Assembly (NCBI GenBank): GCA_016188625.1
Contig: JACPHL010000191.1
Location: 1 to 7,563, forward strand
DNA: 7,563 nucleotides
Source of the DNA: Candidatus Rokuibacteriota bacterium
GTDB taxonomy: Bacteria; Methylomirabilota; Methylomirabilia; Rokubacteriales; JACPHL01
Direction of reading: 5' to 3'
Numbering within the stretch: position 1 is the stretch's first letter; every line of letters begins with the position of its first letter. The notes beneath the pieces are model-generated. The model saw nothing but the letters and a program-made list of their open reading frames with translations. It did not search any database and was not told where the DNA came from. Both the position numbers and the translations under genes were made by a program. Of the stretch, positions 2,289 to 7,462 are shown in pieces.

Positions 2289-3098
2289 GTGAGCACCCGG
2301 ATCCTCCGGGACGCCAGCGGAGCGGACGTCACCCTCCCCGACCCGCCCCGGCGGATCGTCTCCCTGATCCCCTGCATCACCGAGATCCTCTTCGCCCTCG
2401 GCCTCGACGAGGCCGTGGCCGGGGTCACCCGCTACTGAACCGAGCCCAGGGCCCGGGTGGCCTCCAAGCCGAAAGTCGGAGGGGAGAAGGACCCGGACCT
2501 GGAGGCGATCCGGGCCCTCGCGCCTGACCTCGTCATCGCCAACATCGAGGAGAACCGGCGCGAGGACGTCGAGCGGCTGCGGGCGTGGGGGATCCCGGTC
2601 TACGTGACCTACCCGCGGACGGTGTGGGAGGGCATCCAGCTCGTCCGGCAGCTCGGGGAGGTGACGGGGAGGCTCGAGGCGGCCGAGCCGCTGGCCCGCG
2701 ACCTAGAGCGGCGCTACCGGGAGATCGTGGCGCAGGCCGGGGCGCGCGCGAAGCTCCGGGTCTTCTGCCCGATCTGGCGCCGCCCCTACATGACGATCAA
2801 CCGGGACACCTACGTCCACGACATGCTCGCCCTCGCCGGCGGCGCCAACGTCTTCGCCGACCGCCCCGAGCGCTACCCGACGGTGACCCTCGACGAGGTG
2901 GCGGCCGAGCGTCCCGAGGTGATCCTCCTCCCCGACGAGCCGTACCGGTTCCGCAAGGCCCACCTCGCCGACTTCGAGCCCTACCCGGGGATCCCGGCGG
3001 TGCGGGACGGGCGGATCCACCTCGTGGACGGCAAGCTCCTCTGCTGGTACGGCCCGCGGATCGGTGAGGCCCTCGAGGCCCTGCCCCCCCTCTTTTAA
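2289..3098 (+). CDS. helical-backbone metal receptor (BtuF-like) with in-frame TGA: candidate selenoprotein or nonsense allele
   Basis: Read through one TGA at 2436-2438, this frame gives a 269-residue protein of the helical-backbone metal receptor / cobalamin- or siderophore-binding family. Before the TGA come RRIVSLIPCITEILFALGL and VAGVTRY, the standard opening of the family. After it come TEPRARV, KPKVGGEKDPDLEAIRALAP, DLVIANIEENRREDVERLR and VYVTYPRTV. Further on are VFCPIWRRPYMTINRDTY, ILLPDEPYRF and IHLVDGKLLCWYGPR. Remembered relatives have Cys at the TGA column (TRYC-TEP). Codon use stays normal to the end and no frameshift is seen. No signal peptide is present, which is common in this subfamily. 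The GTG start at 2289 has no strong ribosome site and probably depends on coupling to the gene 22 bases upstream. Alternatives are an inactivated gene, a sequencing error, or a shorter product restarting at GTG 2457. Family assignment is strong; the status of the TGA is undecided. Confidence 0.7.
2453..2496 (+). promoter_or_regulatory. possible SECIS-like stem-loop downstream of the TGA
   Basis: CCGGGT (2453-2458) can pair with ACCCGG (2491-2496), and CCTCC (2461-2465) with GGAGG (2478-2482). These enclose a 12-base apical loop that contains AAAGT, with an internal loop between the two stems. The loop begins 27 bases after the TGA, within the spacing seen for bacterial SECIS elements. Stems this size are common by chance in DNA of this GC content, so it is compatible with selenocysteine insertion but is not proof. 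Confidence 0.2.
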
Positions 3099-3272: not shown

Positions 3273-3839
3273 TCAGTGCCGCCGGGAGCGCGCGCGTCGC
3301 GCCGCCGGGCGCTTCGGCGCCGGCACGGTCCTCCGCCGAGGTGGGGCGGCCGCCCGCCGCGTCGCCCCGGCCCCGGCGGCGTCGGCGACCTCGAGGATCG
3401 CCTCCACCTCCACGGCGACGCCCATGGGGAGGCCGGCCATGCCCACCGCGGAGCGGGCGTGGCGTCCCGCCTCGCCGAAGACCTCCACCATGAGGTCGGA
3501 GAAGCCGTTCACCACCTTCGGCTGGTCCCCGAACCCCTCCGCCGAGTTGACCATCCCGAGGACCTTGACGACCCGTTTGACCCGATCCAGGCTCCCGAGG
3601 GCGTCCCGCGCCGAGGCCAGCAGGTTCAGTCCCACCAGGCGCGCGGCCTGGTAGCCCTCCTCGACGGAGAGGTCCTTCCCGAGCCTCCCGATGTAGGTGA
3701 GCTGCCCGTCCCTGACCGGGACATGCCCGGCCAGGAAGAGGAGGTTGCCCGTCCGAACGGCCCGGACGTAGTTGGCCACGGGTTGGGGGGTGGCGGGGAG
3801 AACGATGTCCAGCTCCACGAGCCGCGCCTCAGCGCCCAT
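3273..3839 (-). CDS. RidA/YjgF-family enamine/imine deaminase with basic tail
   Basis: With ATG at 3839-3837 the protein has 188 residues. AAGGAGG lies at 3855-3849, nine bases upstream, and decides this start over an upstream in-frame ATG at 4034 whose extra residues do not look like RidA. Residues about 1-152 are a YjgF/YER057c/UK114-like domain. It shows LLFLAGHVPV, GKDLSVEEGYQAARL, VKVLGMVNSAEGF and HARSAVGMAGLPMGVAVEVEAI. Arg129 corresponds to the conserved arginine that binds the substrate carboxylate in RidA, while the usual Cys two residues on is Ala. RidA proteins hydrolyse reactive 2-aminoacrylate-type enamines/imines in the cytosol. Residues about 153-188 are an odd Ala/Pro/Arg-rich tail. 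The gene diverges from the NUDIX/reductoisomerase pair. This is the broader subfamily rather than a proven RidA orthologue. Confidence 0.85.
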   Translation of the reverse strand: MGAEARLVELDIVLPATPQPVANYVRAVRTGNLLFLAGHVPVRDGQLTYIGRLGKDLSVEEGYQAARLVGLNLLASARDALGSLDRVKRVVKVLGMVNSAEGFGDQPKVVNGFSDLMVEVFGEAGRHARSAVGMAGLPMGVAVEVEAILEVADAAGAGATRRAAAPPRRRTVPAPKRPAARRARSRRH

Positions 3840-7036: not shown

Positions 7037-7462
7037 TTAGCGCCAGTACCCGGGGATCCAGGCCCAGGTGGAGCCGGTCCAGTGCCAGCCGCCGGGGACC
7101 CAGGTATAGCTCGGGTAGGGGTTGACGACCACCGGCGGGGGGACGATCACGACGTGGTGGCCGAAGCCTGGGTGCCCGATGAAGTGCCGGGGCCTGAAGT
7201 GGCCGAAGGGGTGGGGCTTGAAGTGGCCGAAGCCGGGGTGCCCCACGAAGCCGTGATGCCTGAAGCCGGGGTGGCCCGCGAAGCCGCGGTGCCTGAAACC
7301 GGGGTGCCCCACGAGGCCGTGACCCTTGAAGCCGGGGTGGAACCCCGAGCCGACGAAGACCCCCACGCTCACGTGCCCGGCGAGGGCCTGCGCCGGGATG
7401 GCCAGGATGAGCCCCAGCAAGGCGACCAGGATCCCGCCCCACCGACGAATCTGACGTCTCAT
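7037..7462 (-). CDS. secreted His/Gly-rich repeat protein with YxWxPG tail
   Basis: This 141-residue protein starts with a signal peptide (MRRQIRRWGGILVALLGLIL, cleavage near AQALAG). The centre repeats HPGF-centred 11-residue units such as HPGFRHRGFAG and HPGFRHHGFVG, then a degenerate stretch with HFKPHPFGHFRPRHF. The C-terminus is VPPPVVVNPYP followed by aromatic YTWVPGGWHW and WAWIPGYWR, resembling the YXWGXW-type repeat tails of exported bacterial proteins. The many histidines could bind metal, but this is inference and no function is established for such proteins. A complete AAAGGAGGT lies eight bases before the ATG, implying strong translation. The gene is followed by the G6/C6 hairpin element. 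No upstream partner is visible before the window ends, and 7480-7563 shows no promoter I would defend. Confidence 0.8.
   Translation of the reverse strand: MRRQIRRWGGILVALLGLILAIPAQALAGHVSVGVFVGSGFHPGFKGHGLVGHPGFRHRGFAGHPGFRHHGFVGHPGFGHFKPHPFGHFRPRHFIGHPGFGHHVVIVPPPVVVNPYPSYTWVPGGWHWTGSTWAWIPGYWR
7232..7330 (-). repeat. three tandem 33-bp units within the His/Gly-rich gene
   Basis: Units 7232-7264, 7265-7297 and 7298-7330 are near-identical 33-bp repeats (each starting CCGGGGTG on the + strand after one base). They encode 11-residue HPGF units in frame. A fourth partial unit begins at 7331. Such tandem repeats can change copy number by slippage or recombination without breaking the frame. 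Confidence 0.75.

Follow-up and report, generated by a model that had tools for sequence, protein, structure and literature searches.

A predicted selenocysteine at an invariant cysteine position of a BtuF-fold receptor protein in Rokubacteria

Residue 50 of a receptor-fold protein from Candidatus Rokuibacteriota, encoded by an in-frame TGA, is very probably selenocysteine (Sec), which would make its gene one for a selenoprotein. The gene lies on the 7,563-nucleotide stretch of DNA analyzed here (the window; contig C318 of a 2.6 Mb, ~84% complete genome in 344 contigs), which comes from a soil or groundwater bacterium. The cysteine column, the recurrence of TGA in it, the selection that continues after it and the Sec machinery are each apparent from the sequences. 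The initial annotation had suggested selenocysteine at this codon, and the suggestion is supported by the recurrence of the TGA, by cysteine in the homologues and by the sel genes of the genome, with no test that we ran refuting it. The features to which we refer are the following.

2289..3098, + strand: helical-backbone receptor gene (TroA/BtuF-like), 269 aa, GTG start, one in-frame TGA, without signal peptide
2436..2438, + strand: TGA codon for residue 50, a predicted selenocysteine in an invariant Cys column (from the frame translation and homologue codons)
2449..2463, + strand: best SECIS candidate, weak; stem GGGCC / GGCCU, loop CGGGU (2454-2458)
2457..2465, + strand: codons GTG-GCC-TCC (V-A-S), of which GCCTCC at 2460-2465 is the 3' arm of the relatives' hairpin
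2766..2768, + strand: codon of Cys160, the second Cys accompanying Sec (from the homologue alignment)

An in-frame TGA in an otherwise intact receptor gene

Translation of 2289-3098 contains a single TGA, flanked by TRY and TEP, and a match to Pfam PF01497 (residues 23-247, E 2.1e-27) runs across it; the full-length frame and this match bear out the earlier view that the in-frame TGA at 2436-2438 is real. The protein also scores 186.5 bits against the NCBIfam family NF038402 (TroA_like; curated cut-off 30), covering positions 1-219 of the 219-position profile. It shares with the Cys form of this family full-length orthology (57-68% identity within the order), the T-x-[YFW]-C column and the lack of a signal peptide, but has predicted Sec rather than Cys at residue 50. 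The original description as a metal receptor holds as far as this family match, although the family name alone does not fix the ligand. Annotation pipelines would cut the receptor gene off at residue 49.

If the codon were due to a recent TGC-to-TGA nonsense change or an error in sequencing, confined to this one genome, then either the gene would be dead or the base wrong. The window's genome is the only one of its family in our sample set, such that its own TGA base rests on one assembly, and the weakness of its own SECIS candidate would also fit such an accident. However, the frame stays open for 219 codons downstream of the TGA without a second stop or frameshift, and GC at codon position 3 is 97% there compared with 98% before it, in agreement with the initial claim that no frameshift or codon decay follows. 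Together with three results described below, namely TGA at the same codon in an independent four-genus clade, a whole Sec pathway in the genome, and V-A-S codons common to the window and the four other TGA forms, this leaves mutation or error improbable.

An open reading frame with a GTG start does exist at 2457-3098, and the locus could be imagined to produce two proteins, one a peptide of 49 residues and the other of 213 aa, starting at GTG 2457. Such a division would, however, break up the first beta-alpha unit of a fold whose two lobes are predicted in one piece with high confidence, and the Cys relatives are uninterrupted; we regard two proteins as barely conceivable.

TGA recurs at an invariant cysteine column

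In all 110 other homologous loci that were read, spanning Methylomirabilota, Chloroflexota, Binatota, Myxococcota, Actinomycetota and others (some being one genome in two collections), the codon at this column was TGC or TGT, confirming that the TGA replaces Cys exactly. The initial annotation had also advised looking for TGA in other genomes of the lineage, and it was found at the same column in four further Rokubacteria genera from another family of the order (G028; G039, JACQWA010000028; G019, JACPCF010000033; and G025). Among the order's orthologues, in-frame stops occurred as TGA at the Cys column only, in 5 genomes; the chance of a stray nonsense mutation striking that codon is about 1 in 269. 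The loci of the TGA clade and the window have the same neighbours (RidA-type, NUDIX and quinone-oxidoreductase-like genes), supporting the orthology of the TGA relatives. No Sec form turned up in the remaining families of the phylum to which the window belongs, nor in any of the 63 family-holding genomes out of 188 sampled from the phylum of G098 (titled Deltaproteobacteria). The window genome also holds a receptor paralogue (L055, G000 C11:2414-3196; 39% identity) with a longer open frame and Cys at the column (TGC; TTNCDYP).

In a maximum-likelihood gene tree the four TGA relatives form one clade (support 100/98), and the window sequence falls outside it, beside a Cys form (92/78). The minimum number of Cys/Sec changes on this tree is two, which would fit either two gains or a single gain followed by several losses. 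Downstream of the TGA, three full-length members of the clade show dN of 0.07-0.08 versus dS of 0.52-0.55 (dN/dS about 0.13), indicating that coding selection goes on past the TGA within the clade; a dead tail would not show such a ratio.

Selenocysteine machinery and the meaning of UGA

A search of the genome for selA, selB, selC and selD, which the initial annotation had recommended, returned all four. SelB scores 380.7 bits (cut-off 242), selA lies 4 bp before selB, and a tRNA-Sec gene with anticodon TCA is located upstream of selA/selB on the same contig. The selD gene (L036, G000 C179:1347-2267) holds its own in-frame TGA in the Sec loop (GAG-U-ACK) and is therefore whole only with UGA read as Sec; an in-frame TGA was present in selD of all 8 genomes of the order that were checked. 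All five TGA genomes possess selB, selD and tRNA-Sec. Across the order selB exceeds the cut-off in 52 of 59 genomes, and since selB, selD and tRNA-Sec are nearly universal there, the machinery alone is no predictor of the Sec form.

The KARI, NUDIX and oxidoreductase genes of the window have TGA as their stop codon. Because these three genes end at TGA, UGA is an ordinary stop here and the code is standard, as had been proposed from the start. The presence of Cys elsewhere at the column would accord with UGA being read as another residue, through a suppressor tRNA, a tRNA-Cys reading UGA or an altered code, but this is highly unlikely given the TGA stops of the other window genes, the one UCA-anticodon tRNA gene inspected, which is a canonical tRNA-Sec adjoining selA and selB, and the occurrence of in-frame TGAs only at Cys/Sec columns (receptor and selD). 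Considering the recurrence of the TGA, the selection after it, the sel genes, the TGA of selD and the TGA stops elsewhere, Sec is much likelier than mutation, error or a changed code.

In the mechanism that we propose, SelA would make Sec-tRNA(UCA) using selenophosphate from SelD, and SelB would deliver it to the UGA at 2436-2438, aided by a hairpin just downstream. Translation would then continue to the TAA at 3096-3098, yielding a cytoplasmic protein of BtuF/TroA fold.

A hairpin and shared codons downstream of the TGA

Bacterial SECIS elements are modelled as hairpins with a small apical loop and an early G, 16-37 nt after the UGA (PMC13188914), and we applied this as a G early in the apical loop, a spacing of 16-37 nt and a stability of about -7.5 kcal/mol. 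The window candidate at 2449-2463 reaches -6.7 kcal/mol with its loop starting 15 nt past the UGA, 1 nt short of the published range; it is equalled by 12% of synonymous shuffles, and a hairpin as stable occurs in 9 of the 110 Cys forms. The stem-loop originally pointed to at 2453-2496 was dropped, as it is out of step with the relatives' hairpin and no early G is present in its apical loop (AAG or AAAGT).

Three of the TGA relatives carry the textbook hairpin GGAGGC-GGUC-GCCUCC at -10.4 kcal/mol, with the loop 17 nt after the UGA, a spacing within the published model, and the fourth has a 5-bp version of this GGUC-loop hairpin; synonymous shuffles are as good in about 5% of cases for the three and in 31% for the fourth. 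The selD gene of the window genome has a hairpin, GCUGGGUCC-GGA-GGACCUGGC, with the same 17 nt spacing as in the TGA relatives, and selD of G028 has a CGGGU loop similar to the window's. Our simple hairpin search came up empty for the selD genes of three TGA relatives, in which Sec is undoubted. The search is thus insensitive, and because the model fails on undoubted selD genes, the window's weak hairpin is weak evidence either way. An Rfam scan of 2380-2700 gave chance matches only, and SECIS covariation was uninformative since the four clade hairpins are nearly identical.

A second signature, which does not depend on folding, was found in the codons themselves. GTN-GCC-TCC occupies codons +7 to +9 in all five TGA forms, and no V-A-S occurs there among the 110 Cys forms. 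The V-A-S codons tie the window's TGA to that of the clade, via a shared SECIS arm or by descent.

Structure and possible ligand

An AlphaFold model of the receptor (mean pLDDT 93, pTM 0.90) has as its best structure matches the BtuF proteins of Vibrio and E. coli (5YSC, 1N4A; Z 26.6-27.5, 25-26% identity), with Z 27.5 and an rmsd of 1.9 over 248 residues for Vibrio, and Z 26.8 and 2.2 over 241 for E. coli. Tyr beside the Sec column is a further likeness; the two BtuF proteins differ in having Ser at that column, in being periplasmic and in an aromatic B12 cage that is mostly lost in the window protein. No signal peptide was found in the window protein, whose reading frame extends about 12 aa upstream of the start, or in the orthologues, which begin at DASG without a hydrophobic leader; the receptor is therefore most likely cytoplasmic. 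Within the window there is no permease or ATPase gene beside it. Against the BtuF equivalog NF002894 the protein scores 89.1 bits, below the cut-off of 234.

Residue 50 aligns with Ser51 in E. coli BtuF. The residue preceding this serine, Tyr50, is one of six that pack against the corrin (Y50, W66, W85, F162, F168 and W196, the aromatic cage; PMC5269720). By this alignment Sec would lie in the ligand cleft, beside the residue matching the corrin-contacting Tyr50, a position occupied by Tyr49 in the window protein and by Phe in the TGA clade. The six cage positions hold Y, E, N, I, M and Y in the window protein, and with only 2/6 of them aromatic, cobalamin is not an obvious ligand. Residues N85, E87, E88, N89, W163, Y175 and E217 are invariant or nearly so, and these conserved residues suggest a different, conserved ligand.

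Cys160 sits two residues from the position of BtuF Phe162. Every TGA form of sufficient length to judge (4 of 4) has it, compared with 2 of 32 Cys-form loci within the order. This pairing with Sec (p = 0.0003 within the order) is only suggestive, since the test counts non-independent lineages and Cys160 occurs frequently in loci from outside the order (overall, 51 of 110 Cys-form loci have it). A Sec50/Cys160 pair in the cleft appears plausible from the alignment. We infer that Sec is inserted and that its selenolate would bind or react with the metal of the ligand, possibly paired with Cys160. In BtuM, a protein thiolate can bind the corrin cobalt as an axial ligand (PMC6072759), an analogy of mechanism only, as BtuM is an unrelated membrane protein without Sec. 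We put forward, as a tentative and rather doubtful extension, that in this cytoplasmic BtuF-fold protein Sec50 and Cys160 may face each other across the cleft as a selenolate/thiolate site binding or altering a metal cofactor or metalloid, and that Cys-to-Sec exchange may have happened more than once within the order.

Relation to known selenoproteins

Reviews list 119 prokaryotic selenoprotein families, including BtuF (cd01144, CxxU), SaoX and SaoB (PMC13188914; PMC9312934), and the BtuF entry (MDE0719563.1) is credited to Peng et al. 2016, as cited in PMC13188914. The superfamily is thus not without selenoprotein precedent. The listed BtuF selenoprotein has the fold superfamily and a predicted Sec for Cys in common with the window protein; it differs in its listed motif, CxxU, where the window has TRYU and the relatives T-T-F-U, with Thr at -3. 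The initial remark that no selenoprotein is described in this family consequently stands for the signal-less T-x-[YF]-U-x-E-P subfamily, which is absent from these reviews, and fails for the superfamily, of which BtuF is present. SaoX and SaoB (NF040735, NF040727) likewise have predicted Sec in ABC substrate-binding proteins, but are other families, and neither model matched the window protein at E <= 0.01. The most fitting description of the protein is a new selenoprotein subfamily in a superfamily already having one. PMC13188914 cites a Methylomirabilota genome for which 63 selenoproteins were predicted, and an unnamed earlier listing of the gene, for example among those 63, is possible.

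Read as Sec, the codon brings a signal-less receptor-fold protein into a selenoproteome made up mainly of thioredoxin-fold enzymes, and singles out the invariant Cys of the receptor family as functional. As the order holds near-universal machinery and both gene forms, the exchange between Cys and Sec, and the hairpin it needs, can be traced on the tree.

Other features of the window

The window protein has a Cys at residue 29 (2373-2375), a position at which Ser is found in 109 of the 110 Cys forms as well as in the remaining TGA forms. Upstream, a DUF6627-type small membrane protein gene (1871-2266, + strand) ends 22 bp before the receptor start, making co-transcription possible. Downstream, a RidA-like gene (3276-3839, - strand) is convergent with the receptor gene, and the same neighbour adjoins the receptor gene in the TGA relatives L008, L009 and L012. 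Further along, 7037-7462 (- strand) encodes a small protein that looks secreted and contains repeated HPGF(R/K)H units.
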